Of a stretch of DNA of 36,688 bases, positions 1,849-34,268 are shown piece by piece. Location of the stretch: the NCBI GenBank assembly GCA_024276605.1, contig JAJRWX010000081.1, forward strand, positions 1 through 36,688, given 5' to 3'. The stretch is from Planctomycetota bacterium. Lineage in GTDB: Bacteria > Planctomycetota > Phycisphaerae > UBA1845. The notes under the pieces were generated by a model. It worked only from the letters and a program-made list of their open reading frames with translations. It did not search any database and had not been told where the DNA came from. The position numbers were made by a program, and so were the translations under genes. The stretch's first letter is position 1. Each line of letters begins with the position of its first letter.

Positions 1849-1901
1849 GTCGTACTCCTTGAAGTCGAAGCGGTTGGGAAGTTTTGAAAATCATGCATTA
1901 G

Positions 1902-3230
1902 CTACCAAGCGCCGCTACGGGCAAATGAAAGCGGCCTGGTGTTGACGGATTCGATGGTGGCGTGCGCGTCGTGGGCTGCTCGGACGGCGAGCGCCGCCGC
2001 CCAGAATCGGTCGGCGTGACTACCTTCCTGTCTGGGGGCTGAGATGCGAAAGTGTCCGCTGCTTGTCATGGATCGCTCAACGCTGTGCCAATCGTTGATA
2101 ACGGCGTCGCGGTTGGGAATACGAATGCGATGATTCTCTACAGCGATGCGCAGGTCGCCGGCTAAGGCGGACTTGATGGATGAAGTAAAGGTGACGGGAT
2201 GAACGCGATGTTTTCCGAATCGCGTGAGTAGTTCCTCGGCTAATTGCATACCCAATCCACTAGCATCGATGCAACATCGTCTGACGCAACGCAGTGAAAG
2301 TAGTTCGTGGAGCATGGCTTGTTGTGCTCGAAAGGGTGCGGCGGATAGTTCAAATAACCCCACCGTCAATAGAACATCGCCGGTGATCGCTAAGACCCAG
2401 ACGACGGTCAGATCACGCAGTCGGCCTATGTCTACGCCGATGAAGAGGTCGCCGGCATCGCGTGGGACATCAACTACGGCGTGAGCCGGTTGAAGTTGTT
2501 CGTCTACGCAGGCAAGAATTTGGTCGTAACTCAGCAGAGCCGTGGCTTCTTCGATAAATTCGCAGAGGAATTCCTGGCGAAAGAGAAGATCGTCGCCGCA
2601 GGCTTGGCGCAGGGCTTCCATGTCGATGTTCAAACCTTGTTTGATGGCGTCTGGTAGGGTGAGAAAATCCGTAGAAAAGCGTGGGTTGTTGCGTAAGTCG
2701 TAGAAGAGGTTGCCCTTGCCTTTGGGGGTGGAGGCTATATCGAGTTCGCCGTCGCCTCGGAGTAGAGTAGGGAATAGTGACGCCCATATGTCACGATCGT
2801 CACGGTGCATGGCGAATTCATCGAGTAGTACATCGCCGGTATAGCCTCGGGCGGTTTGAGGGTTGGCGGGTAGACCGATGATGCGCACGCCGCCGGGTAA
2901 GAGTATTTCGCCGGCTGTGAAGTTCATATCGTTGAAGTAGGTGGCATTGGTGTATTGGGCAGCGATTTGTAATACCCGACAGTGTTGCCGGGCTTTAAGC
3001 ATGAGTTCTCGGGATTGGCGCATACCGGCTGAGAGAAAAATCTGGTTACGTCTTCTGGAGAGTCCGCGAAGGATGCGGCGGAGTGATTTGGTGAAACTCT
3101 TGCCGGTTTGCCTGGCCCAGCAGTTCCAGCGGAAGCGAGCGGAAGATTCGATGTCGCGGCGCTGGTAGGGAAGTAGGGGGACGAATGGTTTAGGGTGAGC
3201 GGGTTGTTTGTTGATGTTTTTGGTTGTCAT
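1902..3230 (-). CDS. terL: Phage large terminase subunit (Mu gp28-like)
   Basis: This 442-residue DNA-packaging motor has an ATPase followed by an RNase H-fold nuclease. Visible ATPase motifs are the deviant Walker A ARQTGKS (residues 39-45), Walker B VLLDE (134-138) and the coupling motif ASTPKG (166-171). Nuclease acidic residues are D267 in GVDIGR, D322 in CCIDASG and D407 in HADRFW. All needed catalytic positions are present, so the gene looks intact. The ribosome binding site before the ATG at 3230 is poor, and an internal start is possible but would remove little. No small terminase gene lies upstream; instead the 420 bp up to 3650 hold dispersed chromosomal repeats, so the phage block ends abruptly here. 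Confidence 0.9.
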   Translation of the reverse strand: MTTKNINKQPAHPKPFVPLLPYQRRDIESSARFRWNCWARQTGKSFTKSLRRILRGLSRRRNQIFLSAGMRQSRELMLKARQHCRVLQIAAQYTNATYFNDMNFTAGEILLPGGVRIIGLPANPQTARGYTGDVLLDEFAMHRDDRDIWASLFPTLLRGDGELDIASTPKGKGNLFYDLRNNPRFSTDFLTLPDAIKQGLNIDMEALRQACGDDLLFRQEFLCEFIEEATALLSYDQILACVDEQLQPAHAVVDVPRDAGDLFIGVDIGRLRDLTVVWVLAITGDVLLTVGLFELSAAPFRAQQAMLHELLSLRCVRRCCIDASGLGMQLAEELLTRFGKHRVHPVTFTSSIKSALAGDLRIAVENHRIRIPNRDAVINDWHSVERSMTSSGHFRISAPRQEGSHADRFWAAALAVRAAHDAHATIESVNTRPLSFARSGAW

Positions 3231-20100: not shown

Positions 20101-20305
20101 CGACTGACTTGCTACAGATCGTGCCTGTTCCGGTTGCGGTGGAAACGTCCATGCGGACCACATGGTGTCCAGGTGTACCCATAATGACATGTGGTGCTAC
20201 GCATGAGTCACTCGCGGATACGCCACATTGTCCGAAGACATCGACATTCGAAATGAAAAGAACGACAACGGCAGCGAGTATGACATAGACTTGTCGTTTC
20301 AGCAT
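14195..20305 (-). CDS. Giant secreted multidomain protein (2036 aa): PPC-like, Cys-rich, beta-helix, papain-like and dockerin-like domains
   Basis: The start at 20305 has TGGAG 9 nt upstream. Residues 1-26 are a signal peptide. Residues about 27-335 hold two tandem pre-peptidase-C-like domains (both contain GPLTFSTCHP). Residues about 340-560 are Cys-rich repeats (CDGAGTCAHPPE, CDGDGSCSHPPE). Thrombospondin type 3-like calcium repeats follow (DSDGDGVGDGC). Residues about 610-1235 form a right-handed parallel beta-helix of NosD/pectate-lyase-like repeats. A domain at about 1250-1600 contains GTCYGMSG (C1294), GHVMNYD (H1395) and LYDNN (D1416), a Cys-His-Asp order that suggests a papain-like fold. 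A second beta-helix segment, more TSP3 repeats and a dockerin-like tail (GDVDGDGQINLEDAG) end the protein. It is probably an extracellular surface or matrix protein; its substrate is unknown. It is transcribed divergently from the sigma/kinase pair. Confidence 0.85.
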   Translation of the reverse strand: MLKRQVYVILAAVVVLFISNVDVFGQCGVSASDSCVAPHVIMGTPGHHVVRMDVSTATGTGTICSKSVGKTVWFEVTPTVSGPLTFSTCHPSTTYDTVVQAYSGGTAECLGYIDEGCSDDDPAAECYNGCSGSSSVVTIPNAIANTRYVFEVGAFGDNSAVCTLCLGVIVTIGNPCGAPPRNLVCSEAIDLPGTQGTHEFTVDVQDAEVLMSEPLPQCVTPAIGHSVWFKVTPQISGPLTFSTCHPNTTFDTVIQAYLFGSGCTGFSTLVACNDDFTTDAQCANGCDLSNRRSAQMTIDNAVAGTTYYFQVGSFNDNFAGCDPLCLGVRATVAECDADTDCDDGNPCTSNFCFSGTCNTLPVVSGLACPDDGNVCTKDQCDGAGTCAHPPEPVNTTCGNPTVTECDGADSCDGAGVCSPNFVISGTSCTPDANDCTRDVCDGDGSCSHPPEAVGTSCGNPANTSCDDPDTCNGAGVCFANFAANGVSCSDVFFCNGDERCNGEGACQTIGPACSTGEVCDEGQDQCFPDCNGNGIADSIDLEQGTSKDCNGNLIPDECEPDQDGDTIPDVCDNCPDIANVDQIDSDGDGVGDGCIIDCYSCTDCSSKLDGRYETVRLAVNLTDEAGSCILITANTLVFDCQGNTIDGDAIGEFDIGIDAVGRTGNTVKNCVISDYTTGIRLENSSNHILDGNTVTRTTNAGLLLSAANGNQIKNNDIQQSKYGVRLADANDNAFLNNTFCQNTQQDILDSTPTAPSPLNTRSGNKCDAIVNWNSDNDTTWCDTVCTPNVATACGDAASCATALGGGFNVVTLDRDITAPGGFGIAGSHVTLDCNNYTISGSSQNAGIVLDNKIGVTIKNCIVDNFSVGIELRSATKNVLKWNTIRNNTTGIRVTSIGQTQSRSNTMLSNTIRDNATYGIALSNTELNTLDNNILMDNGLYSIWVDGSCNNNIVNNYGGTGANPIFYQHDIPAGGSISGGTYSQIIYCNVGHAVIDNVTIDNGAKKNDGILLVDCFPLSVRNSNIRNSNGILARNSRNTTVRDTTVERNQVDGIVLNQSPYSEVFGCTTQNNQGFGILVDAGSHNAKVYNNTVTANHGGIRVYAANDVQVYDNQIDDHTNTLVGTGIEIEAANASIIANNDAVANNYGLFFYNNSTNATVTGNSFCYSASSDVYNNGTTNTGTGNTCSNNLWGWNDTGAPLGCTNNCVGWYNYQWGFSFHNPSKSSLSWARYKQTFGSNEVNISLNVCIGLPLCFPFVGCKCLGKKVSIETPIPDPFAAIYYGIAYRPRAAAGTCYGMSGTSLAFYYGHDWVSNYDPNATKVKDLSVNSANGSHNLAVKREIIQGSQMSSESLHYFLKELAYGHANANWVSYIAARDLAQRKQGMVSIKQGLTKGHVMNYDTVLPVVAGKERMVLYDNNKESFATTIQRDPLMYPAIIIDTATNGWSYDNGGGSVWSNGNIFDVPYSLVNRTDWSLPTSMDGIGILVFGNATGNVEDKSGQRIGLDANGTANENIAMGMSYPVWATPNEDIMDTIPPIYLVQPDDYDFNVYGKTGAYSIMSFGHDGAFVLEDIPATVSTHDVMEFRRINGSLSHSALSFATNDVSKLINLSLMKQFGPDADRRLYKISNASVTNTDKLIVKVSPDLQSLVMANVGAGSIVFDVMFQNELIDRQAYFVGIWPRLALAGVRIDPQQIQVLTPSNWGDLSNATVMISSNVCGDSVCADGEDHVNCPTDCAALACVIPTDDMVITGSVTLCPGIYEITDVGTVGVLQVTGDNAVLDCNGATLMGTGSGVGVSSVGTTGIQIKQCKIKGFQTGIELLGVSSPTISACAITDNSDVGLSLLTANNAELTHNVIINNGDGVRMMSSVATTLTENLLCPNTAFDIWSDSVTGNSGLANACSNTVGWNDANVTGCTYPCQIVDNDEDGILIDVDNCPTTFNPMQRDGDADGIGDACDCCLDTPAGLSVNGSGCGIFDVGDVDGDGQINLEDAGRFLPCMDGPGIPTRTGCQTSDINAGGEVDLADFAQLQRRLCEP

Positions 20306-20756: not shown

Positions 20757-21356
20757 TTGGAACGGGTTTCACGACAATCTAAAACCGCCGCCCTACCGCC
20801 TTCAGGCTACGGTAACCATCCCACAGCCATCCAGTTGATTCCTGCGCTGTACAAAGTCTTGCACGATATCGCAAAGCGACAATTGCTACATGAAAGATCC
20901 GATTTGACCTTGAATGCCACGGCACTCGTACACGAGGCTTATATTCGATTGGCCGACCAGACACACGCGCATTGGCGCAATGAGGCCCATTTTCTTGCGA
21001 CCGCATCGCAGACCATTCGCCGCATATTGGTAGACTACGCCCGAGCGCATAACCGTAAAAAACGAGGACAGGGTTTCCAACGAGTTACGTTAAGTCTGAT
21101 ACCCGCGCCTTCGGGTTCCTCACCGGTCGACATCGTCGCCCTCGATGATGCCCTATCGCGTTTAGCGACGGAATCAGAGACTGAAGCCCGCATTGTCGAG
21201 TTGCGTTTCTTCGGCGGCCTATCCGTTATGGACATTGCGAAGGTCTTGGCGATTAGTGATAGGACAGTACGGCGTCATTGGAATTTCGCCAAAGCGTGGC
21301 TATTTCGAGAACTCGGTGACGGCGAAAATCGTTCCAATAGTGACGCGATGCCATGA
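20757..21356 (+). CDS. ECF-type RNA polymerase sigma-70 factor
   Basis: The 199-residue product starts at TTG (20757): GGAGG lies 4 nt upstream and no better ATG exists. Region 2 covers TQLIPALYKVLHDIAKRQ-like residues through LVHEAYIRLADQ and ILVDYARAHNRKKRG (about 20-105). Region 4 is TEARIVELRFFGGLSVMDIA and ISDRTVRRHWNFAKAWLFREL (about 140-190). The signatures NATALVHEAYIRL and RRILVDYARA match the planctomycete/acidobacterial sigma family known as TIGR02999. It directs RNA polymerase to a small regulon. Its last codons overlap the start of the Ser/Thr kinase gene by 4 nt (ATGA), so the two are translationally coupled. The kinase probably signals to this sigma factor. Confidence 0.92.
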   Translation: MERVSRQSKTAALPPSGYGNHPTAIQLIPALYKVLHDIAKRQLLHERSDLTLNATALVHEAYIRLADQTHAHWRNEAHFLATASQTIRRILVDYARAHNRKKRGQGFQRVTLSLIPAPSGSSPVDIVALDDALSRLATESETEARIVELRFFGGLSVMDIAKVLAISDRTVRRHWNFAKAWLFRELGDGENRSNSDAMP

Positions 21357-24067
21357 ACAGCAGCGTAGACCAACGTGTCCGTAAGTTGTTTGATGCGGCA
21401 AGCAGCTTGCCGCCGGCATCTCGTACAGCCTTCCTTGACGAATCATGTGCAGATGCCACAGACCTGCGGCGTGAAGTTGAATCTCTTCTCGCCGCTTTTG
21501 ACGGTGCGAAGAGTTTTCTGGAAACACCTGTCACCAGCGAAGCATCCCTATGGAACAGCGCGGGTGTGCAGTTTCCCTCTTCACCCACGAATCATGAGCC
21601 GGATCAAATACATGGATACCGCATCGTACGCGAACTTGGCCGAGGCGGGATGGGCGTCGTGTATGAAGCCGAGCAGACCCATCCGCACCGGTTGGTGGCG
21701 CTGAAAGTGATCAGTCATGCCTTTCGCTGGGACGAACACGCGCGACGCATGTTTCAACGCGAAGTACAATCGCTGGCACGGCTTCGGCATCCAGGCATCG
21801 CCGCCATTCATGAGGCAGGGGTTTCCGGAGACCAACAATACTTCTATACCATGGAGCTTGTACAAGGTGTGCCGCTCACCGAGTACGCCAACCGTCATGA
21901 TTTATCGATGGCCGACCGCCTACGCACGATGCAACGCGTATGCGAAGCCATTCACTACGCGCACCAGCGGGCGGTCATTCACCGCGATATCAAACCGTCC
22001 AATATTCTCATTGACGCGACGGGTAGCCCCAAGATTCTGGATTTTGGATTGGCCAGGATTACAGACGCTGATCTGGCACTGACCACCATGGGAACTGAGA
22101 TAGGTCGCATTCAGGGCACACTAAACTATATGAGCCCGGAACAAGCCCGCGGTCGCTCAGGCGAGATCGGCGTGATGACCGACGTGTATGCGCTTGGGGT
22201 TGTCCTCTTCGAACTCGTCACCGGCAAGTTGCCGCACAATCTCAGCGGCATCCTCCTACCGGAGGCCGTACGCGTGATTTGCGAGGATTCGCCGACGCGA
22301 CCGGGCACCCTGAATCGAACCCTACGTGGCGATGTGGAAGCGATCGCACTGAAAGCGATAGAGAAAGACCCTACCAGGCGGTACCAAAGTGCCTCAGATA
22401 TGGCACAAGACATTGAGCGGCACTTGGCTAATGAGCCGATTCTGGCACGCCCCCCCACGGCGATTTATCAGTTACACAAACTCGTCGCCCGCCATCGCCT
22501 ACCATGCGCCTTCGCATCACTGGTTTTCTTATTGACCGTAGTTTTCGCAGGTTGGATGAGCTGGGCTTATCGTCGGGCGGATCAGGCGCTGGAGGCGGAA
22601 CGCGTGCAGCATGAACAGGCGACATTCAACCTCGCACGGGCCGAGAGAGCGGAGAAAAAAGCCATCACCGAAGCTACCACGGCAGACCAAACGACCAGGT
22701 TTCTACAGGGTATGTTGGCCTCGATTACACCAGAAACAGCCAGGGGTCGTGACATCAGTGTGATTAGAGAAGTGCTTAATGAAGCGGATAAACGAATCGA
22801 GACCGAACTCTCCGACCAACCCAAAGTCGCCGCCGCTATACATCACACACTTGGCACCACCTTCCTAAGTCTGGGTGAACTCAGTCAAGCTGAAGAACAC
22901 CTACAAGCTGCCATCAATCTAAAGCAGAGTGTATCCACAGATACATCACGCACCTTACACGCGCTCGGGCGATTGAAGACGGCCCAAGGTGCCTACGAAG
23001 AGGCCCAACAATACTTTAGCGATGCCCTCGAACAACAGCACGCTCAGTTCGGATCCAAACACGCGGACATCGCCCAAACCATGAACGATTTCGCCTGGCT
23101 ACTCATTCAAAAAGGTGATTACGCGAAAGCCAAACCCCTACTACAGCAAGCGCTGGCTATGCGGCGCGAGTTGCTCGGCGACAACAGTATTCATGTCGCC
23201 CAGAGTCTCAATGATCTTGGTAATTTCATGTTTTACGCCGGCAGCTATACGGAAGCGGAAACGCTCATGCGGGAGGCGCTACAGATTCGGCAAACAATTC
23301 TTGGTGACGATCATCCTTACGTAGCGACTAGCCTCAACAACCTCGCCGCCCTGATGAATGCCAAAGGTGACGATGCAGCCGCGGAACCGCTTTACCGACG
23401 CGCCCTCGCCAGCAGACGCGCGCTACTGGGTAAGGCTCATCCGGATGTGGCGGGCACACTGAACAATTTAGCCGTCACATTGCAACACCTGAAGGATTAT
23501 GATGGAGCCGAGGCTTGCTTCCGTGAGTCGCTCGATATTTTTCGGCAGGTACATGGCGAAGAGCATCCGGCAGTCGCGACTGGCATATCCAACCTCGCCA
23601 TCCTCTTAAAGATCAAAAAAGACTACACCGGCGCCGAAACATTACTACGAGAAGCGCTTCGAATTCGCACCCAACTTCTCGGTCGTCAACACCCGGACGT
23701 GGCCTACACACTGTTGACACTGGGGGAAGCACTTCAACTGGGGGGTGACGCAGCCGGCGCGGTCCAACCCATCCGGGAAGCATTGAACATTCGAAAGAAA
23801 GCACTACCACCCGATCATTGGCTGACGGACCACACGCGAAGTATTCTGGGATCATGCTACGCATCACTAGGTAGAGACGACGAGGCCGAGGCGCTGCTGA
23901 TCGATAGCCTCACGCAACTAGGCACAAAACGTGGTACGCAGGATATTTACACGCAAGGGGCGTTACGCAGACTCCTTCGCTTTTATGAATCCATAGGACA
24001 CCAAGACGAGGCCGCCACATACCGCAGCCTATATCTGGAGCCTTCAGAAATTGTTGACGATCGCTGA
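21353..24067 (+). CDS. PknB-type Ser/Thr protein kinase with C-terminal TPR repeats
   Basis: This 904-residue membrane receptor kinase has residues 1-85 as an N-terminal helical segment like those in sigma/kinase pairs. The kinase domain spans about 89-370: glycine loop LGRGGMGVVYEAE (95-107), K118 in VALKV, catalytic HRDIKPSN (210-217), DFGLAR (230-235) and activation segment GTLNYMSPEQ (255-264). All catalytic residues are present. A transmembrane helix lies at about 384-404, then a coiled coil rich in Glu/Arg (about 410-450). Ten or so kinesin-light-chain-like TPR units of 42 residues follow to about residue 890, with the recurring pattern H-P-x-V-A-x-x-L-N-N-L-A. The TPR part is probably outside the membrane and binds a ligand. 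ATGA overlap with the sigma gene indicates one operon. Confidence 0.93.
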   Translation: MNSSVDQRVRKLFDAASSLPPASRTAFLDESCADATDLRREVESLLAAFDGAKSFLETPVTSEASLWNSAGVQFPSSPTNHEPDQIHGYRIVRELGRGGMGVVYEAEQTHPHRLVALKVISHAFRWDEHARRMFQREVQSLARLRHPGIAAIHEAGVSGDQQYFYTMELVQGVPLTEYANRHDLSMADRLRTMQRVCEAIHYAHQRAVIHRDIKPSNILIDATGSPKILDFGLARITDADLALTTMGTEIGRIQGTLNYMSPEQARGRSGEIGVMTDVYALGVVLFELVTGKLPHNLSGILLPEAVRVICEDSPTRPGTLNRTLRGDVEAIALKAIEKDPTRRYQSASDMAQDIERHLANEPILARPPTAIYQLHKLVARHRLPCAFASLVFLLTVVFAGWMSWAYRRADQALEAERVQHEQATFNLARAERAEKKAITEATTADQTTRFLQGMLASITPETARGRDISVIREVLNEADKRIETELSDQPKVAAAIHHTLGTTFLSLGELSQAEEHLQAAINLKQSVSTDTSRTLHALGRLKTAQGAYEEAQQYFSDALEQQHAQFGSKHADIAQTMNDFAWLLIQKGDYAKAKPLLQQALAMRRELLGDNSIHVAQSLNDLGNFMFYAGSYTEAETLMREALQIRQTILGDDHPYVATSLNNLAALMNAKGDDAAAEPLYRRALASRRALLGKAHPDVAGTLNNLAVTLQHLKDYDGAEACFRESLDIFRQVHGEEHPAVATGISNLAILLKIKKDYTGAETLLREALRIRTQLLGRQHPDVAYTLLTLGEALQLGGDAAGAVQPIREALNIRKKALPPDHWLTDHTRSILGSCYASLGRDDEAEALLIDSLTQLGTKRGTQDIYTQGALRRLLRFYESIGHQDEAATYRSLYLEPSEIVDDR

Positions 24068-24285: not shown

Positions 24286-25606
<1,321 letters not shown>

Positions 25607-25623
25607 ACTAAAAATTTGGCCAT

Positions 25624-25896
25624 TTATGTGCTCCTAACCAGAAATAGGCCTTCGAAGTCTTCAATTGTTCTTGCCGTTGTTCCCCAAGTTCTCACCTGAA
25701 AGCCTTGTTCCGTATTACTCGAATACATCATGATACAAGCTCCATCCTTTGCCTTGCCACAAGCCTTTTCCCACAAGCGGTCTCGTACCATACCAGACAC
25801 CCGTCCGACAAACACGCATGCTTTCGGCTCCAATAGCCATCTTGTCAGTTCACCACGCAAGCTTGGCGATACTCGTTCAAGAATCAGAACAATCAT
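25624..25896 (-). CDS. cas2: CRISPR-associated Cas2, subtype I-E
   Basis: The 90-residue protein starts MIVLILERVSPSLRGEL, a strong match to the Cas2e (CT1978) branch, and carries LEPKACVFVGRVSGMVRDRLW and a C-terminal ARTIEDFEGLFLV. It forms the central dimer of the Cas1-Cas2 integrase that inserts new spacers. Length is close to the 94 residues of the E. coli protein. It starts inside the cas1 gene (20-nt overlap) with GAGGT just upstream. It is the last gene of the operon. Its stop is 17 nt from the first CRISPR repeat, so any leader or integration signal must lie in its 3' coding end. Confidence 0.95.
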   Translation of the reverse strand: MIVLILERVSPSLRGELTRWLLEPKACVFVGRVSGMVRDRLWEKACGKAKDGACIMMYSSNTEQGFQVRTWGTTARTIEDFEGLFLVRST

Positions 25897-26860
25897 GATC
25901 TACCTCATTTTCCGGAGCATGGTTAAGGCCTCCTTCCACGATCTGTTTGTCCGGATCCCACAATCCTCCGGGGGCAGCGGATTCAAGATCATGTGGTTGA
26001 AGAATGTCTTTTTTCGCTTGTCTTGTGGGAATCGCCAGTATTGTTTGCATATCCGGAATAATCCTTGCCAATAGTTTGGTAGAAACGAAGACATCGCGGC
26101 AGGCCAGACGAATCTGCCGCTCCAATTTTTCCGTACCCTGGGCTATTGCCTTGAACGCCAGGGGGATCGTGATCTCAGCCTTGTACAGATCAGCAATATC
26201 GTACACAAAAGACAACATCTTTCCCGTGTGAATGAAACCAAGCGCCGGAGAAAAACCCGCTGAGACAATCGCAGCATGACAAATGCCGTACAAGCATGAG
26301 TTGGCCACTGAAAGTGCCCGGTTAACCGGATCGGCGTTTTGCCATTTGTCCCGCTTGTAACTTCGCCCCGACCAAGGAACTCCGGTTTCTCTCGAAGCTT
26401 TGGCGTATATTTCCCGTACCCTGACACCCTCCATGCCACGAATTTGTTTGAGTGTCAAAGTCGGTTCGAGCTTCTGAGGGAAACGCAACTGATAGAGACG
26501 CCGCACGACTTGCATGTGAAGCGATTCGTCCGCCCACATCCGTGCCTGATGGAGCGTGTTGGATGCGTTGCGCGTTTCACCCATGCCCGCCGCATAGAAT
26601 CGCACACCTTCCTCACCGCACCAGACGACAAGACAGCCATGGTCTGCCAACACCGAAACGGCGGCATGGGTAATCGAAACGCCGGGGCCTAACATCAAAA
26701 GAGCGAGATTGGCACAGGGCACGGGTACTTTACCAGCGGCGTCGTGAATAGCGATGGCACGAGCCTCCTGATCCACGCGACAATGCTCCACATAGAGATA
26801 GCTCCACCCGTCGCGGAATTTCGGCAAGACGTGCAAATCTTGTATGCTCATTTCAATCAC
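25877..26860 (-). CDS. cas1: CRISPR-associated Cas1 integrase, subtype I-E
   Basis: This 327-residue spacer integrase has metal-binding residues E144 in RGMEGVRVR, H211 in GFIHTGKMLSFVYDIADL, and D221/D224 in the same motif, all as in E. coli Cas1. The N-terminal beta domain (1-90) and the helical catalytic domain are complete. The C-terminal tail after about residue 290 is acidic (ENEVDHDCSDS) and variable in the family. Start: GTG at 26860 overlaps the cas6e stop as GTGA; an ATG three codons later (26851) with AGGGTG upstream is an alternative. With Cas2 it forms the adaptation module, so this locus should be able to acquire spacers even without Cas3. Confidence 0.97.
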   Translation of the reverse strand: MIEMSIQDLHVLPKFRDGWSYLYVEHCRVDQEARAIAIHDAAGKVPVPCANLALLMLGPGVSITHAAVSVLADHGCLVVWCGEEGVRFYAAGMGETRNASNTLHQARMWADESLHMQVVRRLYQLRFPQKLEPTLTLKQIRGMEGVRVREIYAKASRETGVPWSGRSYKRDKWQNADPVNRALSVANSCLYGICHAAIVSAGFSPALGFIHTGKMLSFVYDIADLYKAEITIPLAFKAIAQGTEKLERQIRLACRDVFVSTKLLARIIPDMQTILAIPTRQAKKDILQPHDLESAAPGGLWDPDKQIVEGGLNHAPENEVDHDCSDS

Positions 26861-27597
26861 CCTGGTAGTGGTGCGACGGACAGCAGTCCAAAGCCAAACG
26901 CTTTGGCGGGGCCGATGCCTTTGATGATAGTTTCATGCAGGCGTTCAGGGTCGGTAACTTCTAGACTACCGTCATAACGGACGGAACGCAGACGTTTTCC
27001 TTGCCTCTTACCTTCTTTGTTGACATAGACATAACCCGGCTGGATGACGATAGAATTCTGATCAACGGCGAAACCTCCCGCTTCGGCCCGGACAATGAGC
27101 CAGTTAACAAGCTGATCGGACGGCACTGGAACACGTTTGCCGTGCCGTCGTTTGCCATCCGAACCACTTTTTGTGTCGATCTTACGTGTTGGATTTGCAA
27201 ATAAGCGAAACCGTAAAACTTGGTTTTGTACAAAGGCAGGATTAAAGTCCTTCGTCTCCGGTTTTGCGGCTAGGAAATAACCGGCATTATGAAAGGCGTA
27301 ATCCCAGTCCGGTCGGAGGGCGGATTGGACGAGAATAGCCACTCCGCCGCGCATTATAGGATCAATACGAAATAAGAAACCGGATGTTTCTTTTCTTTCG
27401 ACATGGACCTGTTTATCACCAAAATCTTCCGGTTTGAACGGCTTTAAAAAATCCGGATCATCCGACTTGCGCTGCTCCGATGGGAAAGCCATACACAAGC
27501 GCTGATGAACGCGGTAAAGGTTGCGTAGCCACTTCTGCCCAGGACGGGGAAGGTCGAGGCCATCGTCAACGGCAATACAAAGTCGGCTAAGAAACAT
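26857..27597 (-). CDS. cas6e: CRISPR-associated Cas6e pre-crRNA endoribonuclease
   Basis: This 246-residue processing enzyme cuts the repeat hairpin and stays bound to the crRNA 3' end in Cascade. The Cse3/CasE family features are an N-terminal RRM fold with the pair Y28 and H31 in RNLYRVHQRL (the spacing of the Thermus catalytic pair), a basic groove KRRHGKRVPVPS (about 148-159) and the C-terminal Gly-rich loop GIGPAKAFGFGLL (about 228-240). Length is slightly above the usual 200-220. The ATG directly follows the cas5 stop, with GAGGAAG inside the cas5 3' end as ribosome binding site. It ends in a 4-nt overlap with cas1. Confidence 0.95.
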   Translation of the reverse strand: MFLSRLCIAVDDGLDLPRPGQKWLRNLYRVHQRLCMAFPSEQRKSDDPDFLKPFKPEDFGDKQVHVERKETSGFLFRIDPIMRGGVAILVQSALRPDWDYAFHNAGYFLAAKPETKDFNPAFVQNQVLRFRLFANPTRKIDTKSGSDGKRRHGKRVPVPSDQLVNWLIVRAEAGGFAVDQNSIVIQPGYVYVNKEGKRQGKRLRSVRYDGSLEVTDPERLHETIIKGIGPAKAFGFGLLSVAPLPG

Positions 27598-28743
27598 TCA
27601 ATCTTCCTCCCCTGATGAAGCATCCAGCATGCTGCCAAAGAAATCCACCGTACGGGCAGCCTCCAGCAACTCGCGGCGACGGCCAAGACGCCGCTCCTTT
27701 AGAAGTCGATTGATCAGATCGAGAATCGTCCGACGTTGAGCCGGGTCAGAAGGGTCGACGCGACGCGCTTGCATGTCGTGCCCGTATTCCAATATGGTGC
27801 AAGCATCATGACAGGATTTGCACAAAGATCGGAGATCTTCATTCGTCTCGTGGCCGACGTTGCTGTAATCCACGTGATGCACTTCCTCGGCAGGTGATTT
27901 GCAAAAGACACAAAGGTAATTGTCAAGTAGCAGACGAGCTTGTCTTGCGTTCTTCCACTGCTGAGACGTGTAATCGACCCGCCGTACTCGAGGTTGATCA
28001 GTGAGATTACAAAGCGCATTTTCCACGGGAACAGTAATCTGATCTTTGATCACCCATCGCGGGTCATGACTGTAAAAGCCAAAGACCTGTGGAACATCAT
28101 GAACAAGTATTGCGCTGTCAGGTGCGGGTGTTCCCGCTGGGTGTTCAATATAAATGTCGAGCGTCTGCATGGAGCCTTGCCCATGATCATCAATGGTCGG
28201 CATTCGAGGTTGCCACGCAACCGAAGAAAGTGCTTTTTTCAAATCATGAAAGATCTCCACGCCCACCAAAACCGGCTTGCCCGGAATACAGCTCTTGCGT
28301 CCAAGGAATATAGGCCACACCGGATCGTCCAGCGCGCAGGCACAATCGTTGATTGTGTCGGAAGGCCCTTGGAGCGCGATGAGAAACGAAGCATCGTAAA
28401 GATACTGACGGCGGGAAAGCAAGGTCTCTTCTTTGCCGGTCGATTGGGTCTTTTTGATTTTGCCATCGGCACTCCGAATGCCAATTTTCGCTCCTACGGT
28501 ATGGTAATCCCAATCGGTGGTTCCGTGTCGATCTACGCGCACGCCCATCTGAAGTAACGCAAGTCGCTTCAGTTTTGGCGGCGAATCTTCACGACGAACC
28601 CCCATAGCACAAAGCAGCATTCCCAACACGCCGGATTTACTGGGGTAACCATCGGTACGCCGCAGCTGAAAACGCGATGAGGTTCCCCATGATTGCATGG
28701 GACCAGCCAGACGAAGAAACAGAGTATTACCATCTTTGCTCAT
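27598..28743 (-). CDS. cas5e: Cas5e fused to a C-terminal HNH nuclease domain
   Basis: The 381-residue product is far longer than Cas5e alone (about 225-240). Residues 1-245 are a normal Cas5e RAMP: FLRLAGPMQSWG at the N-terminus, then RRTDGYPSKSGVLGMLLCAMG and YHTVGAKIG, ending near PRWVIKDQITVP. Residues about 262-345 are a zinc-ribbon HNH domain: CVFC (278-281), AEEVHHVDYSN (H289, H290), NEDLRSLCKSCH (N301, C308, C311, H312). Thus the zinc cysteines and the His-Asn-His triad are all present. Residues 345-381 are a basic helix and acidic tail. Cas5 caps the crRNA 5' handle next to Cas8, near the PAM. An HNH there could cut the target DNA. It overlaps cas7 by 4 nt (ATGA) and abuts cas6. HNH-fused Cas5 variants of I-E are known but rare. 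Confidence 0.95.
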   Translation of the reverse strand: MSKDGNTLFLRLAGPMQSWGTSSRFQLRRTDGYPSKSGVLGMLLCAMGVRREDSPPKLKRLALLQMGVRVDRHGTTDWDYHTVGAKIGIRSADGKIKKTQSTGKEETLLSRRQYLYDASFLIALQGPSDTINDCACALDDPVWPIFLGRKSCIPGKPVLVGVEIFHDLKKALSSVAWQPRMPTIDDHGQGSMQTLDIYIEHPAGTPAPDSAILVHDVPQVFGFYSHDPRWVIKDQITVPVENALCNLTDQPRVRRVDYTSQQWKNARQARLLLDNYLCVFCKSPAEEVHHVDYSNVGHETNEDLRSLCKSCHDACTILEYGHDMQARRVDPSDPAQRRTILDLINRLLKERRLGRRRELLEAARTVDFFGSMLDASSGEED

Positions 28744-29969
28744 GCCATTGCCTCTGTTTTCTCCAGCGCATCGACAACGGATTTGACAAGATCCTCCAGA
28801 CTCTTAAAGGATGTCGCTCCATTGACCTCGACCGAATCAGCAGACCCCACCGCAAGGAGAAACCGACGCATATCTAGAGGTGCGAAGGCGGTTGCGACGG
28901 ATTTAATATAGGAGCTCAAAGCTTTCGCAGATTCGGTCATGAGATTGCGACCCTCTACGGGCTGGAGAAAAGCGTTGGCATAGCTGATCGGATGCTTTTT
29001 CCCAGATATTTCAACCAGAATCAGTTCGGGGACGCCGTGTGCAGCAAAGCTGTTTTGTTTGCCCGTGGGATTGGCGAGTGCCGAAGCACAGACAAGATTA
29101 CCGACCGCATTTGCCGAGTCTTTATCCTCCCATGAAAGATGCTTCTTCAAAGCGTCAAAGTCAACGTTGAGGTACTTATAATAGACCGATGCGTTGAAAA
29201 ATGTTTCTGTATCTCCGGAGCCGAGAAAGGCAGCTCCCATCTGATCCGTCTGCGTCGAGGCATACTCTCGTTTCCGGTCGTCCATGGCTGTGAAGTAATC
29301 GCTCTCGATCATTGTCTCATGCGTGCTGATCGCGTGGGCCACCTGACAGGTCGCCTCAACGTTCACCACCAGATCGCTGGTTGTCATTCTCCCAAATAGG
29401 GCGATATCGACGGTTAGTGTTTCGCTTGCCTTAAATATCTCACTTTCAAATTTCTCAATTTTGTCATACCCGTTCTTGTTCTTTTTGCCGTTGATCCACT
29501 CTTTGTAGATGCTCTCGTTGTCCTTCTTCAGGCGTGAGATCAACTCAGCTATTTTTTGAGCAAAGAGGGGCGGAAAGTAAACCAGTTGACCAGTCTTGTC
29601 CGCAACATCGTCTCCGGTTGAATTAGTGTTTTTTGAGTCGTTCTTTTCCCGAGCGTCGTCGGAACTTGACTTCTCTGATTTGAATTTCTTCCCTAGCGCC
29701 GTCTTGATCTTGCTCAAGTCCTTATTGGGAAAATCGGATTCTTTCAGTTTATCCGCGACCATTCGGGGCAAGTATAGTGTGCGGTCCGCAAGTGCATCTC
29801 CAAATGCCTCTCTGAATTGAGAAGAATGCCGGATATTTCGCTTGAGACACTGGCTGCTGATGCGTCCGCGCGTCACGCCACCGAAGATGCACTTCTTTGG
29901 CTGTCCGGTATCGTCGCGGTTGAGGTTTCCCGGCGGCATGCTTTGAAGCATGTGGATTTGAACAAACAT
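28740..29969 (-). CDS. cas7e: Cas7e (Cse4/CasC) Cascade backbone subunit
   Basis: The 409-residue backbone protein polymerises along the crRNA. The N-terminus MFVQIHMLQSMPPGNLNRDD with KCIFGGVTRGRISSQCLKR is diagnostic for Cas7e. Further matches are TLTVDIALFGRM (about 184-195) and the VEATCQVAHAISTHE segment that follows. Residues about 96-130 form a low-complexity Ser/Lys/Asp insertion (SEKSSSDDAREKND), making the protein longer than the 360 residues of E. coli. The start has AAAGGAA upstream. It lies 22 nt after cas8e, with no room for the cse2/cas11 gene that normally sits here, and its end overlaps cas5 by 4 nt. Confidence 0.97.
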   Translation of the reverse strand: MFVQIHMLQSMPPGNLNRDDTGQPKKCIFGGVTRGRISSQCLKRNIRHSSQFREAFGDALADRTLYLPRMVADKLKESDFPNKDLSKIKTALGKKFKSEKSSSDDAREKNDSKNTNSTGDDVADKTGQLVYFPPLFAQKIAELISRLKKDNESIYKEWINGKKNKNGYDKIEKFESEIFKASETLTVDIALFGRMTTSDLVVNVEATCQVAHAISTHETMIESDYFTAMDDRKREYASTQTDQMGAAFLGSGDTETFFNASVYYKYLNVDFDALKKHLSWEDKDSANAVGNLVCASALANPTGKQNSFAAHGVPELILVEISGKKHPISYANAFLQPVEGRNLMTESAKALSSYIKSVATAFAPLDMRRFLLAVGSADSVEVNGATSFKSLEDLVKSVVDALEKTEAMA

Positions 29970-29991: not shown

Positions 29992-31671
29992 TCAATTGAT
30001 CAGTTGATCGAGGGCGGAACAAAGTCCTGCCCAGTCAACCCTCTCGGGTTTTCGTTGTCGCATGTTCTTGTCAAGGGCACTGCGAAGTTCGGCTTCCAAT
30101 CGGCGTCCACGTGGGAATGAAACCGGATAGAGAGACGCCGACTTTCCCTTGCTGCGCTCATTCAATTGACGCTTCGGAAAAGTGCTGAGCGGGCAAAAAG
30201 CCTTGTTCCATGACACGCGAGCGAAGGATGGGGCGGCGGCCATAAGTTTCAGAACCATCCATGCTACTTTTCGGGACGGGAGGTCTTGGACTCCCTTGCT
30301 GCGTAATCCCCAGTACAAGCCGCTTAGTACATCGAATCCTCCGGGTGAATCATGCATATCCCGGTATGCGGAATTTAACAATGCAACCCAATCCGTACGT
30401 GTAAGAAGTTTCGCGGCTGCTTGCACAAATCGCTTAGCACCTGTAGAGGGAGTACGTGTGGGCTTTCTCCAACCGTCAATACCCTGTGTCCTTTGTGGTG
30501 ATCGATTATCGGGTAAGTAATTACAGATACTACCTGGCAAAAGACTTGGCAGATCGAGTTGTCGGTGGTCAAAAGTCTTGTTGTTTGCCGGATTTGTGCA
30601 GGGAATCACGAGTTGCCAACTGCCGTGGTTTGAGTTCCCCTTGACGACTGCCGATTGCGGAGGTGAATGATCTTTTTTTCCAACCAGCGCGCCGAGATCT
30701 CGACCGATTGCAGCCCATTCTTCCTTCGTACTTTTCATCGTTTTATACTTATTTATCGTCCGGTGCTTATCGGATTCGGCACTGGGGTAGAAGGCAGCGG
30801 GATCCTGCCATTCAAACGGATTATTGTCTGATCGTTTTTTTGTATTCTTGTTCTTGTTGTACACGATAGGGCCGACGACAGAGACTCCAGACTTGCCGCA
30901 TCTCCAGCAAGTTTTCAAATTTTTGTGTGAATCCAAGAAAACACATCGCGGGTTCCAGGTGAAAGCTTCAAGATATGGGATAGTGGCACCCGCATCAGCC
31001 GGTTCGAAGTGTCCGGACCATTGCGCTCGCCCTGCATTGACATCCAAGGGTATGAGATTTAGGCCAAGTGTGAATGCTAAGTTCTTGCCCGATGCGATGG
31101 CCATGATCGGTGGGGCATTGTGTATAGAAGGGGTCAAACCTGCGCCGCCGGATTGGCTCCAAGGGATCAATCGAAGCATACCTAATGATGCACACGGAAG
31201 ACATATACACGCTTTCTTGTCGTCACCATGATGAAAGTGGGCGACGTTGGTACCCGAAGCGAGTTCAGCAAACAGGGAGCCAGCGGATTTTTGGGCTCTT
31301 GCGTTTTTCAATTTTTGGTCTTGCAAAAAAGGAACCTTGTCATCGAAGAGGTTGAAATAGTTTGCTTCTCTTTCGATGGCATCAAACACTTTCGATGGCA
31401 AGCAATCTGACAAAAGAATATCCCGCAGCTTTTCTACCCCTTCCGCTTCATCTGCTTTCCAATAAAGCAACGTCAGAAGAAAACGGTGTGCGGCGAACAT
31501 ATCTAGCGGACTTGAAGATGAAATGCAGCGGATATCCATTGCCCTTTTCATGGCGTCTAATGGAGAACAAACTAGGGGCTCGGAATTTAAGTTTATTACG
31601 TGTAGCCATGTGCTGGTAAGCACGTTCCAGTCCATCATCCGTTGAGAGGAGTCTTGCTTTATGCTGGACAT
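29992..31671 (-). CDS. cas8e: Cas8e (Cse1/CasA) large Cascade subunit
   Basis: The 559-residue large subunit recognises the PAM and starts R-loop formation. Matching features are the N-terminal AHRFLLTLLYWKADE, the YFNLFDDKVPFLQ motif (about 105-117), and the central AHFHHGD loop. Two CxxC pairs, C157/C160 and C255/C258, form a likely zinc site. The C-terminal helical bundle runs from about 405 to 559. The protein is about 55 residues longer than E. coli CasA. The start at 31671 has GGAGGG upstream and overlaps the stop of a 54-aa ORF (TAATG). A possible internal start lies at an ATT (residue 397), 9 nt after AAAGGA; if used it would give a 163-residue C-terminal product, the size of Cas11. 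That is speculative. Confidence 0.93.
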   Translation of the reverse strand: MSSIKQDSSQRMMDWNVLTSTWLHVINLNSEPLVCSPLDAMKRAMDIRCISSSSPLDMFAAHRFLLTLLYWKADEAEGVEKLRDILLSDCLPSKVFDAIEREANYFNLFDDKVPFLQDQKLKNARAQKSAGSLFAELASGTNVAHFHHGDDKKACICLPCASLGMLRLIPWSQSGGAGLTPSIHNAPPIMAIASGKNLAFTLGLNLIPLDVNAGRAQWSGHFEPADAGATIPYLEAFTWNPRCVFLDSHKNLKTCWRCGKSGVSVVGPIVYNKNKNTKKRSDNNPFEWQDPAAFYPSAESDKHRTINKYKTMKSTKEEWAAIGRDLGALVGKKDHSPPQSAVVKGNSNHGSWQLVIPCTNPANNKTFDHRQLDLPSLLPGSICNYLPDNRSPQRTQGIDGWRKPTRTPSTGAKRFVQAAAKLLTRTDWVALLNSAYRDMHDSPGGFDVLSGLYWGLRSKGVQDLPSRKVAWMVLKLMAAAPSFARVSWNKAFCPLSTFPKRQLNERSKGKSASLYPVSFPRGRRLEAELRSALDKNMRQRKPERVDWAGLCSALDQLIN

Positions 31672-32043: not shown

Positions 32044-32454
32044 TCAGGGACGCTCCAAGAAGGCTTCGAGCTTCTTCTTCAGACGGCTTGGTTGGCGTGT
32101 TTCGCATTCCCAAACGACGCACACCGACCATCCGTCGCGCCTGAGCTTCCGCATGTTCCGCCGATCCGGTTCCATATTCCCCGCAAACTTCTTGGCCCAA
32201 AACTGGGCGTTGGTCTTCGGGCGTGGCCGACCATACTTGCATCGGTGGCGGTGGAAAAAACAACCGTGTACGAAGATCAGCTTTCTGTGGCGTGGCAGTA
32301 CCAGGTCAGGCCGTCCGGGGAGATCGCGCCGGTAGAGCCGGAACCTGTAGCCCATTGCGTGGACAGCCCGTCGCACGACCAGTTCCGGTTTGGTGTCCGC
32401 ACCACGGATACGCGACATGCAATAAGATCGCTGGTCAGGCGTCAGGACATCCAT
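32044..32454 (-). CDS. vsr: Very short patch repair endonuclease Vsr
   Basis: The 136-residue Vsr endonuclease nicks next to T:G mismatches that arise by deamination of 5-methylcytosine, starting repair back to C:G. Family motifs: MSRIRGADTKPE (residues 13-24), GRPDLVLP with catalytic D50, FVHGCFFHRH (H63, H68, and zinc ligand C65), and the C-terminal VVWECET. Length matches E. coli Vsr (156) minus a short N-terminal arm. It follows the C5 methyltransferase gene by 68 nt on the same strand, the usual arrangement. AGGA lies just before the ATG. It is followed by a hairpin terminator. Confidence 0.95.
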   Translation of the reverse strand: MDVLTPDQRSYCMSRIRGADTKPELVVRRAVHAMGYRFRLYRRDLPGRPDLVLPRHRKLIFVHGCFFHRHRCKYGRPRPKTNAQFWAKKFAGNMEPDRRNMRKLRRDGWSVCVVWECETRQPSRLKKKLEAFLERP

Positions 32455-32522
32455 CCTGCTGCATCCCTTTCGATTCGCCCGCGTCGTGAAAAGCCATCTG
32501 GCGGACTACCCCGTTGACGGCC

Positions 32523-33959
32523 TCATGCCACGCGCACGAATAGGCGGAGAGAATCCGTCCGCCCCGAGCGCCGGCGTTTTTCGGTTATCACGCCAGCCGC
32601 CTTTAGTTGCGTGCGGAGAGCTGACGCGATGGCATAGGCCATCAGCGGCGGCACCGAGTTGCCGATCTGCTTGAAGCCATCATTCATCGCGCCACAGAAG
32701 CGGAAACCGTCAGGGAAGCTCTGGAGTCTGGCGGCCTCCCGTACCGAGATTGTTCGTGCCTGGTCAGAATCGTAGTGAATGTGCGAGTAGGTATCTTTCC
32801 CAAGGTGAGCCGTAACCGTCCGCGCGGGGGCATACGCCTCCATCTTCCGCCACTTGTTCGGAAACTTTGAGGGGTCGTATGGCGGCACGCATGCCCGGCG
32901 CAGCTCCTGATACTGCTCTCCATGGCTACGCAGACTCTTGCCGCGCCGGCGCTCCTCTGCGGCAAGTCGTCTGACGAAGCGGCGTTCCGCAATCTGGTGC
33001 GCCTCTGGATACTGATCGCCCGGCTTCATGTTCCGGAAGATCGTGTAGTCACGCGGCGTGTAGCGGATCACATGGTCAGCCGGAGGCGGAGCTTGCTCCA
33101 AACCTGGCCATGATCGCATCAGCCGCTGGTAGCCGTTCCTCGCCGGACGGTTGTACGCGATCTCCGTGAGGAATCGCCGAGCGCCCGCCCTCGACTTCAT
33201 ATGCCGCAGATGCTCCGTTATGGCGGGCAAATCGCCGAGAGCCTGCCCCGTTGTGATCGCCGATGCCGGATTCAGCACGCGCTCGAAGTCCTCCGTGTAG
33301 TAGTCGTGTGGTTCGAGAACGGGAATGCTGTCATCTCGTCCGTGCCGGGATGTGGCGTACCCAACAGGGAGGTCAACCGCATGCGTGAGGCTGGGAAACT
33401 GCGGCGCTTGCTGTAAGTGTCCATCCAATCCGATAAGTAAAAGCCGTTCGCGCATCTGCGGCACACCGAACCATGCTGCGTTCAGAATAGCGTATCGAAC
33501 CTCGTAACCCAAAGCAGCCCCGGTCGCCGCAATCTCCTCGGCAATGTTGCGGCCACCAAAACGAGCGATGTCCCTCACATTCTCCATCACGAACGCCGCC
33601 GGGCGCAGGCTTTCAACGAATCGGAAGAAATGTGTGTAGTAGGACACGCGGGGGTCGCTCAGGTGAGCGAGCCGCTCGCCGGCAATTTCCCGGAGCTTCG
33701 CGCGACCGATCCGGGCGAACGGCTGGCAAGGAGGGCCTCCAATGATAACGTCGACGCGGGAACCCTCGTACTCGCGGGCATCCACCTGGCGGATGTCACG
33801 AGGCTTGCTGGAAACGCAGGCCGCATGAAAGTTGGCTGCATAGGTCGCGTGAGGCACGGCTGCCAACTCGATACCATCCACGATCTCGAATCCGGCGGCA
33901 TCAAACCCGAGTGAGAATCCGCCGCACCCAGCAAACAAATCAAGAACTCGTCCCCGCAA
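32523..33959 (-). CDS. C5 cytosine-specific DNA methyltransferase
   Basis: The frame is open to 34139, but the best start is TTG at 33959: GGAGGTG lies 7 nt upstream, and the protein then begins MRGRVLDLFAGCGG as in most family members. This gives 478 residues. Motifs: I DLFAGCGGFSLGF (7-19), IV GGPPCQPF with catalytic C78, VI ENVRD (E126), IX VREAARLQSFPDGF and X QIGNSVPPLMAYAIA. The target-recognition region between VIII and IX is long (about 200 residues). It transfers a methyl group from SAM to C5 of cytosine in a DNA site not predictable here. With Vsr and the GHKL ATPase it forms a modification/defence cluster. Base composition is visibly GC-richer than the cas genes. Confidence 0.93.
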   Translation of the reverse strand: MRGRVLDLFAGCGGFSLGFDAAGFEIVDGIELAAVPHATYAANFHAACVSSKPRDIRQVDAREYEGSRVDVIIGGPPCQPFARIGRAKLREIAGERLAHLSDPRVSYYTHFFRFVESLRPAAFVMENVRDIARFGGRNIAEEIAATGAALGYEVRYAILNAAWFGVPQMRERLLLIGLDGHLQQAPQFPSLTHAVDLPVGYATSRHGRDDSIPVLEPHDYYTEDFERVLNPASAITTGQALGDLPAITEHLRHMKSRAGARRFLTEIAYNRPARNGYQRLMRSWPGLEQAPPPADHVIRYTPRDYTIFRNMKPGDQYPEAHQIAERRFVRRLAAEERRRGKSLRSHGEQYQELRRACVPPYDPSKFPNKWRKMEAYAPARTVTAHLGKDTYSHIHYDSDQARTISVREAARLQSFPDGFRFCGAMNDGFKQIGNSVPPLMAYAIASALRTQLKAAGVITEKRRRSGRTDSLRLFVRVA

Positions 33960-34268
33960 CAGTGAACACCTCCATGCAAGCCAAACCCTGCTATCCCGTA
34001 GCCTTGACGGCTCTGCATCCGCTCCAGCTACACAAGCCGGCCTGTGACCGCCAATGCACTCGCATTCGGTCACTTGCCACCCGGCGACATGGTGTGGCTG
34101 GAGACCGCACCGCCCCGTCAAGGGCTGGGCAAGAGCCACGCCCCCACGGAGCCGTCCGCCGGGTGGAGCAGGGCCGCTGGCAACGATTTATAGCCGGACG
34201 ACGCGGCCAGGGCAAAAAAACGGCGTCGGCGGGGTTGACAGCCTGTAGTTTCGCTGTATTATACGACC
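33960..34268. other. Divergent intergenic region of the methyltransferase cluster
   Basis: 309 bp, GC-rich, between the methyltransferase (minus) and the 214-aa gene (plus). The strong plus-strand promoter at 34235-34262 lies at its right end. The open frame of the methyltransferase extends into it, but the translated sequence there is not conserved-looking. No inverted operator site is obvious. Confidence 0.5.
34235..34262 (+). promoter_or_regulatory. Sigma-70-type promoter giving a probable leaderless mRNA
   Basis: TTGACA at 34235-34240, a 16-nt spacer, then TATTAT at 34257-34262. The ATG of the next gene starts only 6 nt later at 34269, which is where transcription itself should begin. 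The mRNA would therefore have little or no 5' leader, and no Shine-Dalgarno is present. The -35 is a perfect match to consensus and the -10 differs by one base. Confidence 0.7.

Follow-up and report, generated by a model that had tools for sequence, protein, structure and literature searches.

Can a type I-E Cascade cut DNA with a nuclease of its own, and which of its usual parts does it keep when it does? This question is raised by a CRISPR-Cas operon of a Planctomycetota bacterium, located in a stretch of 36,688 nucleotides (contig JAJRWX010000081.1) that we refer to as the window. The window combines type I-E gene content with a full-length Cas5-HNH homologue, conserved HNH residues, no detectable Cas3 in the genome and a fusion of cas8 to cas11. 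We read it as a type I-E2 (Cas5-HNH) CRISPR-Cas system in a compact form, in which the HNH domain would cut DNA without Cas3, and we put the probability of this reading at roughly 0.85. Other loci and genomes are given by their L and G numbers where they have to be told apart.

Organization of the operon

The operon runs on the minus strand in the order cas8, cas7, cas5, cas6, cas1, cas2, followed by the CRISPR array, and all six cas ORFs are open. It begins with a cas8e-cas11 fusion of 559 amino acids (29992..31671), recognized by the Cse1 Pfam model at 110.6 bits, which is followed by cas7e (Cse4/CasC, 28740..29969, 409 aa; TIGR01869, 247.9 bits, cut-off 178.05) and by the cas5-HNH gene (27598..28743). 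The remaining genes are cas6e (Cse3/CasE, 26857..27597, 246 aa; TIGR01907, 90.1 bits, cut-off 45.2), cas1e (25877..26860, 327 aa; TIGR03638, 390.3 bits, cut-off 215.6) and cas2e (25624..25896, 90 aa; TIGR01873, 77.5 bits, cut-off 33.15). The tight packing of cas5 with cas7 and cas6, pointed out in a preliminary description of the locus, is evident from the coordinates: cas7 and cas5 overlap by 4 nt, cas6 starts at the base adjoining the cas5 stop codon, and cas6 and cas1 again overlap by 4 nt. The same description regarded the operon as otherwise ordinary for type I-E, which does not hold, as no cas3 was detected in the genome and cas11 is fused to cas8. As predicted from the genes, the effector module consists of cas8-cas11, cas7, cas5-HNH and cas6, making up a putative four-gene Cascade.

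Cas5 carries a C-terminal zinc-ribbon HNH domain

The cas5-HNH ORF starts with ATG and encodes 381 amino acids with no internal stop, compared with 224 amino acids (675-nt CDS) for the E. coli Cas5e homologue, annotated CasD. The Cas5e part spans residues 1 to about 240, of which residues 7-176 match TIGR01868 of NCBIfam with 160.8 bits against a cut-off of 68.95, and it is followed by a linker and the HNH domain, a division that is borne out by 8yb6_A and by an AlphaFold2 model. The core of the HNH domain (residues 261-324, 27772..27963, minus strand) holds a zinc ribbon of C278, C281, C308 and C311 together with H290, D303 and H312, as delineated by residue conservation, the model and the zinc HNH nuclease of phage GVE2 (PDB 5h0m).

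A search against HNH families, proposed earlier as a check on the domain, gave a divided result. The Pfam HNH model aligns with residues 278-314 at 17.4 bits, below its cut-off of 21.4, and NCBIfam yields only a sub-threshold IscB match; due to the low Pfam score, the family model alone would leave the HNH assignment in doubt. In contrast, a search with the last 112 residues finds the solved Cas5-HNH at an E-value of 2e-26 and 5h0m at an E-value of 4e-4. The AlphaFold2 model, built on 63 sequences (the Cas5-HNH alignment comprises the window and 62 of 65 surveyed loci, with L053, L076 and L090 left out), has a mean pLDDT of 87.5 and a pTM of 0.67. Strands 287-290 and 304-307 and helix 309-320 follow each other in the order of an HNH core, block pLDDT values are 91-97 across residues 261-320, and residues 245-324 superpose on 5h0m with a Z-score of 8.4 and an rmsd of 2.9 over 79 aligned residues. 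Furthermore, the five best VIA-align fold matches of the whole model are all Cas5-HNH chains (Z 24.7-27.3, 330-342 residues), with a high rmsd of about 15-17 that we read as two domains turned relative to each other. Taken with the full-length match to 8yb6, these results establish the ORF as a Cas5e with a C-terminal zinc-ribbon HNH domain, as first proposed.

Residue conservation was assessed in an alignment of 72 Cas5 rows, which includes the window and has 70 distinct rows; 70 of the 72 rows span the HNH domain. C278, C281, H290, C308, C311 and H312, all named in the preliminary description, are invariant (70/70). Its further candidates fared differently: position 289 is variable, with Q in 53 and H in 17 of the 70 rows, including H289 of the window, and N301, taken to be the catalytic asparagine, varies across the rows. 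According to the 5h0m alignment, the position of the HNH asparagine is occupied by D303, where D is found in 53/72, E in 11/72 and a gap in 5/72 rows. The residue matching H312 is an alanine in PDB entry 9jxs, presumably as an inactivating change.

The aspartate at the canonical asparagine position, together with the Pfam score under the cut-off, could be taken to mean that the HNH domain lacks catalytic activity and has a purely structural or regulatory role, so that targets would be silenced by binding. However, H290 and H312 do not vary in any row spanning the domain, aspartate is the family's commonest residue at position 303 and is also present in the active Cloacimonetes protein, and DinG-HNH works with an H-D-H set of residues (H497, D514, H523; PMC10910872). 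A dead domain is therefore very improbable, and we proceed with an HNH domain that is predicted to cut.

Place among known HNH-containing Cascades

Over residues 1-357, the window protein matches Cas5-HNH of Candidatus Cloacimonetes (8yb6_A) with 46% identity and an E-value of 9e-79, collinear from end to end, in an alignment of the sort proposed earlier as a check. Due to this end-to-end match, the window system belongs to the published variant I-E2. The Cloacimonetes system was found and tested in 2023 (Altae-Tran 2023, PMC10910872), and the variant I-E2, under which Cas5-HNH falls, was named in the 2025 classification (PMC12669027). The structure has been summarized (PMC11822464) and is represented by PDB entries 8yb6, 8yha, 8zlu, 8zp7 and 9jxs. 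The window system is thus a sequence-level addition to an already published family, and its recognition as a type I-E system of the Cas3-less, HNH-bearing kind known from large-scale mining was correct, here in a planctomycete.

The Cloacimonetes complex carries out PAM-dependent, precise dsDNA cleavage in vitro, cutting the target strand 3-4 bp and the non-target strand 8 bp past the protospacer, on the PAM-distal side, and leaving 3' overhangs (PMC10910872). In human cells it produces indels, which are lost on mutation of the HNH domain (PMC10910872). Within the complex, the HNH domain is located in the inner belly, between Cas6 and Cas11 (PMC11822464). An HNH cut close to the PAM, as suggested earlier for the window, is unlikely because this characterized relative cuts on the PAM-distal side. 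Target DNA also triggers collateral ssDNA cleavage by the Cloacimonetes Cas5-HNH (PMC10910872), and the main effect of the window system, besides or instead of precise cutting, could be an abortive-type degradation of ssDNA upon target recognition. We consider this unlikely, as precise dsDNA cuts and indels in human cells have been obtained with that very complex (PMC10910872), and favor a system that cuts its target DNA.

The window and the Cloacimonetes I-E2 locus have in common a full-length Cas5-HNH, the I-E proteins Cas6, Cas7, Cas1 and Cas2, the lack of Cas3, and I-E-type repeats, with a period of 61 nt in Cloacimonetes and 61-64 nt in the window. They differ in that Cloacimonetes has separate cas8 and cas11 genes and therefore five effector genes, whereas the 559-aa fusion leaves the window with four, and in the residue before the catalytic histidine, which is Q in Cloacimonetes and H289 in the window. 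One of the surveyed loci, L043, is probably a MAG of the Cloacimonetes relative or a near copy of it. Of the features of I-E2, the window shows the HNH nuclease attached to Cas5 in a type I-E Cascade and an effector set that includes Cas7, Cas6, Cas8 and, solely as part of the fused Cas8 chain, Cas11; where the characterized locus has five separate effector genes, the window has four. Because a fusion of cas8 to cas11 is reported 'in some cases' among Cas5-HNH systems (PMC10910872), we do not take five separate genes as defining I-E2.

With canonical E. coli type I-E, the window shares the Cas5e, Cas6e, Cas7e, Cas1e and Cas2e families and the repeat hairpin, but it differs in the HNH domain on Cas5, in having no detected Cas3 and no separate Cse2, and in its truncated Cas8. 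Type I-F4 Cas8-HNH is similar in that an HNH domain inside Cascade takes the place of Cas3 and the C-terminal bundle of Cas8 is remodelled, being replaced by the HNH domain in I-F4 (PMC11822464). In I-F4, however, the HNH domain resides on Cas8f and not on Cas5, and the two are described as independent acquisitions (PMC10910872). Subtype III-H, a type III system with Cas10, is an architectural parallel only.

Search for Cas3

The window's genome (4.5 Mb in 110 contigs, 96.03% complete) yielded no match to Cas3 helicase or HD models above curated cut-offs, and no Cas3 was found in the 5 kb upstream of the window cas8. Sub-threshold matches of Cas3 type occur at 16 loci, and the 10 better-scoring ones, which were scanned, are other proteins: DEAD-box helicases, a RecG (which also has a just-sub-threshold Cas3-like match in its C-terminal part), a TRCF-like gene in two frames, a secretion ATPase, and HD, GGDEF-HD and HDOD proteins. 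As the genome is an incomplete draft in many contigs, a cas3 gene far from the operon may have escaped detection.

An E. coli Cas3 query gave no match in 72 loci, made up of 65 contig-survey loci, five loci from close relatives, one viral contig and the window (within these 72, L019 repeats L034 and L023 repeats L076); L021, included in this set, is a canonical I-E locus whose Cas3 lies outside the piece searched. With planctomycete Cas3 added as a query, fragments of 116 and 143 amino acids were found directly upstream of cas8 in L075 (3698-4045) and L057 (3699-4127), respectively, as well as a weak one in L060 (2334-2624); these pieces are likely remnants of a lost cas3. Intact Cas3 was found in no HNH locus searched, and 46 of the 58 HNH loci with a visible cas8 start extend at least 3 kb upstream. 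In the canonical I-E loci of the phylum, Cas3 is present in 11 of 13 (as contig-end pieces in L182 and L189); in the remaining two, the contig breaks off at the gene cluster.

These data bear on whether the window could be an ordinary Cas3-dependent I-E system, with Cas3 encoded elsewhere and the HNH domain as an accessory. The draft state of the genome and the Cas3-like fragments upstream of cas8 would fit such a system, as would the statement that 'most', not all, Cas5-HNH examples lack cas3 (PMC10910872). Against it stand the genome without a match over the cut-off and the contrast between canonical loci, where Cas3 is usually close by, and HNH loci, where it was never seen intact. We regard dependence on a distant Cas3 as hardly credible and retain the reading in which the HNH domain would replace it.

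Cas11 is fused to a shortened Cas8

In type I-E systems, the PAM is read by Cas8, Cas8e of E. coli ends in a C-terminal four-helix bundle, and Cascade contains two copies of Cas11. The Pfam Cse2 model had no match in the window's genome at an E-value of 10, and because it also misses the fused Cas11 domain, the genome was searched again with a Cas11 alignment of the family (20 rows, window included). Its sole match is the C-terminal part of the window Cas8 (next E 0.9), and no separate cas11 gene was found in the genome by this profile.

Several comparisons identify this C-terminal part. In a search of PDB sequences, residues 441-479 match Cloacimonetes Cse2 with an E-value of 6e-4. A fusion-free Cas11 profile, made from 46 separate Cas11 proteins with the fused loci L019 and L029 and also L091 left out, gives 52.8 bits for residues 403-554 of the window protein and 39-177 bits for 14 of the 15 fused genes, and it reaches 15 bits on none of 43 separate Cas8 proteins; the remaining gene, in L156, scores 8.9 bits and is thus an uncertain Cas8-Cas11 fusion. 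Conversely, a profile of the 43 separate Cas8 proteins ceases to match the window Cas8 at profile position 332 of 501. In a model of the fusion (13 sequences, mean pLDDT 72.4), residues 11-398 correspond to Cas8 chains (8yb6_J, Z 27.9, rmsd 3.9, 338 aligned) and residues 409-559 to CasB/Cse2 (4h7a, Z 11.1, rmsd 3.0, 118 aligned), a Z-score that helical bundles may reach by chance and that we credit because the sequence profile agrees. With plain Foldseek, alignments of the fusion to entire Cas8 chains were obtained too, at a high rmsd, and we read these as two helical bundles being superposed.

Due to the point where the Cas8 profile stops and the fold matches of the model, the Cas11 domain (residues 403-557, 30001..30465, minus strand) can be placed at about the position where the Cas8e C-terminal bundle would begin. 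Profiles and model together thus point to a Cas11 that is fused to Cas8 in place of this bundle. Of 21 held-out separate Cas8 proteins, 18 reach 15 bits or more against a bundle profile built from the other half of the separate set; the profile built from the full set matches none of the 15 fused Cas8, with a best score of 0.8 bits. A divergent Cas8 bundle, considered as an alternative identity of the C-terminal part, was ruled out by the bundle profile and the Cas11 profile. The longer Cas8-Cas11 fusions (L033, L044, L045 and L191) are missed by the bundle profile as well, so in them, too, the bundle is lost or changed.

We also searched for internal starts from which free Cas11 could be made. 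Across 13 fused genes, no shared in-frame start, either ATG or GTG/TTG with a Shine-Dalgarno-like site, was found upstream of the Cas11 domain in a scan that is blind to starts lacking such a site, and the window gene has no ATG around the Cas11 boundary. Within the domain, M439 is fixed in all 10 short fusions and in the frameshifted L029, while the equivalent position in separate Cas11 is L in 42/46 and M in 0/46; no Shine-Dalgarno-like site precedes M439 in the window. Free Cas11 from an internal start at M439 is possible, and the fixed methionine keeps this alternative alive.

In the open-access literature consulted, we found neither the loss of the Cas8 bundle nor the repeated fusion nor a Cas5-HNH-Cas6 chain as described below. 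Within the same literature, the Cas8-Cas11 fusion appears in print in one clause only (PMC10910872).

Distribution and phylogeny

In a Cas7 tree of 80 rows, a branch with a support of 95 separates 14 canonical rows from 66 rows of the HNH group, support values being from quick SH-aLRT only and long branches being present. Duplicate or short rows (L018-L021, L023, L062, L157, L158, L160-L165) and Cas7 stretches below about 200 residues are not part of the tree; in L022, a member of the HNH group, cas5 is cut before the HNH region. By this grouping, the window appears to share descent with the other Cas5-HNH Cascades. Its own clade comprises 12 rows (support 99), all with Cas5-HNH. The short fusion occupies one open frame in 10 of them, L029 is frameshifted, and the contig of L032 begins in cas7 with no cas8 visible, so that cas8 and cas11 are fused in all 11 members with a visible cas8. 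Record titles of the clade name Planctomycetota, Deltaproteobacteria (filed as Myxococcota), Nitrospinota, Calditrichota and unnamed bacteria, which suggests horizontal spread if the bins are right.

Across the tree, 15 of the 69 rows with a stated cas8 architecture are fused, and at least four changes are needed to explain them. This count is without 10 HNH-group rows, in which cas8 is not visible or unsure, and three canonical rows; the 11 canonical rows counted as separate include seven in which both genes were recognized, the rest being too divergent for the profiles. All fused rows are HNH loci, and canonical rows are separate in 7/7 cases where both genes are recognizable.

In a sample of the phylum, matches were found in 18 of 392 genomes, seven with full-length Cas5-HNH (the window's own included) and 11 over the Cas5 part only, among them G232, where cas5 is cut by the contig end. 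In the survey of Cas5-HNH contigs, 24 of 65 record titles, by reading, name planctomycetes. The suggestion that a planctomycete member with this operon may be new is therefore upheld for the sequence itself, and not for the kind of system or for its occurrence in planctomycetes.

Among 60 close relatives, seven have a match. Cas5-HNH is present in the window's own genome, in G031, which is of the same family, and in G050, which is of the same order. G030 has only the 3' half of cas5-HNH, cas5 of G009 is cut by the contig end, G049 encodes a canonical Cas5e without HNH and with Cas3, and G057 has a short HNH-like match only. In G050, one open frame of 630 amino acids (L156 4828-6759, minus strand; L020 157-2049) encodes Cas5, HNH and Cas6e in succession, with the Pfam Cas5 and Cas6 families both over the cut-off. 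The adjoining Cas8 of 654 amino acids is weakly Cas11-like at its C-terminus, and G050 possibly has a three-gene Cascade, if both the chain and the Cas8-Cas11 assignment are right.

Two further arrangements were observed in the survey. In G030 (L157 7832-9724, identical with L076 6438-8330), the 3' half of cas5-HNH is joined in frame to a repeat-rich frame that is YD/RHS-like by eye; cas6, cas1, cas2 and an array are present, cas7 and cas8 were not found at this locus, and it is rearranged or misassembled. An 8.3-kb contig of the viral collection IMG/VR (L091) carries cas8, cas11 (in two frames), cas7 and cas5-HNH.

CRISPR array and surrounding genes

The CRISPR array (24287..25606, minus strand) contains 22 listed copies of an identical 28-nt repeat, ATTGTCCCCACGCGCGTGGGGGTGAACC on the minus strand, and begins 17 nt after the cas2 stop codon (gap 25607-25623). 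The repeat is predicted to fold into a hairpin of -11.7 kcal/mol (z -1.75). From its likeness to other I-E repeats beside cas2, we infer that the minus strand is transcribed. A DNA search revealed no second similar array in the genome. The short distance to cas2 recurs in the family, with the array within 33 nt of cas2 in 31 of the 45 HNH loci in which an array was found; the distance is 301 nt in L191, outside this count, and in canonical loci it amounts to 26-152 nt (five from the phylum) and 105 nt (E. coli). The leader of the array may lie inside cas2.

Searches for spacer targets gave no match for the whole array in a phage collection, only matches with an E-value of 0.8 in the own genome besides the array itself, and none in IMG/VR for exact 22-24-nt cores of three of the 21 spacers. 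Together with the array abutting cas2, the fused cas8-cas11 gene and the absence of any match from both other genomes of this genus, this could indicate a decaying locus that has lost its function. However, six open cas ORFs and a repeat without variation argue otherwise, the fusion is common to the whole clade, and a close-set array is usual in the family. We judge decay to be most improbable and continue to regard the system as probably functional.

The window also contains genes outside the operon. Genes for a Mu-type portal protein and a terminase large subunit (571-3230, minus strand) mark a prophage remnant or prophage end. A gene at 14195-20305 (minus strand) encodes a likely secreted protein of 2036 amino acids that combines right-handed beta-helix/NosD repeats with a dockerin domain at its C-terminus. 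Adjoining the array, an ECF sigma factor gene overlaps a gene for a Ser/Thr kinase-TPR protein (20757-24067, plus strand), and a cytosine-5 DNA methyltransferase and a Vsr mismatch endonuclease are encoded upstream of the CRISPR operon (32044-34139, minus strand).

Proposed mechanism

By analogy with the Cloacimonetes relative and from general knowledge of type I-E, we infer how crRNA processing, PAM reading, cleavage, cut position and trigger might proceed. Cas6e would cut the array transcript into crRNAs, and Cascade would be assembled from Cas8-Cas11, Cas7, Cas5-HNH and Cas6. The N-terminal part of Cas8 would read the PAM and open the DNA, and upon formation of a full R-loop, the HNH domain tethered to Cas5 would cut both strands without Cas3, and the cuts would most likely be PAM-distal, as they are in Cloacimonetes. 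Cas11 would be covalently tethered to Cas8 where the C-terminal bundle would otherwise be, and each complex would then hold a single Cas11. Because Cas11 is fused to Cas8, the pocket of the HNH domain, which lies between Cas6 and Cas11 in the relative, may differ, and the cut position of the relative may therefore not carry over to the window.

Implications for the Cas5-HNH family

Taken together, the clade of the window could be a distinct compact sub-variant of I-E2, a tentative reading to which we give somewhat less than an even chance. Freed from Cas3, its Cascade would have lost the Cas8e bundle and gained a Cas11 domain in the same chain, with a single tethered Cas11 instead of two free copies. 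The HNH domain would be held and released differently, and the cut site or the collateral activity would be unlike that of the solved Cloacimonetes complex. The fusion would have arisen several times among Cas3-less HNH loci, in line with the number of changes on the Cas7 tree, and the Cas5-HNH-Cas6 chain of G050 (L156) would possibly be part of a DNA-cutting Cascade of three genes.

Cas5-HNH Cascades make precise DNA cuts without Cas3 and have been used for indels in human cells (PMC10910872). Delivery would be easier with a natural system that needs one gene less, and with a relative that perhaps requires only three effector genes. The compact systems furthermore make it possible to test to what extent a Cascade that no longer has to recruit Cas3 still depends on the Cas8 bundle and on two copies of Cas11. 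With Cas3-like fragments in two or three HNH loci and the repeated fusion of Cas8 to Cas11, the family looks like a Cascade that has been shrinking after gaining its own nuclease.
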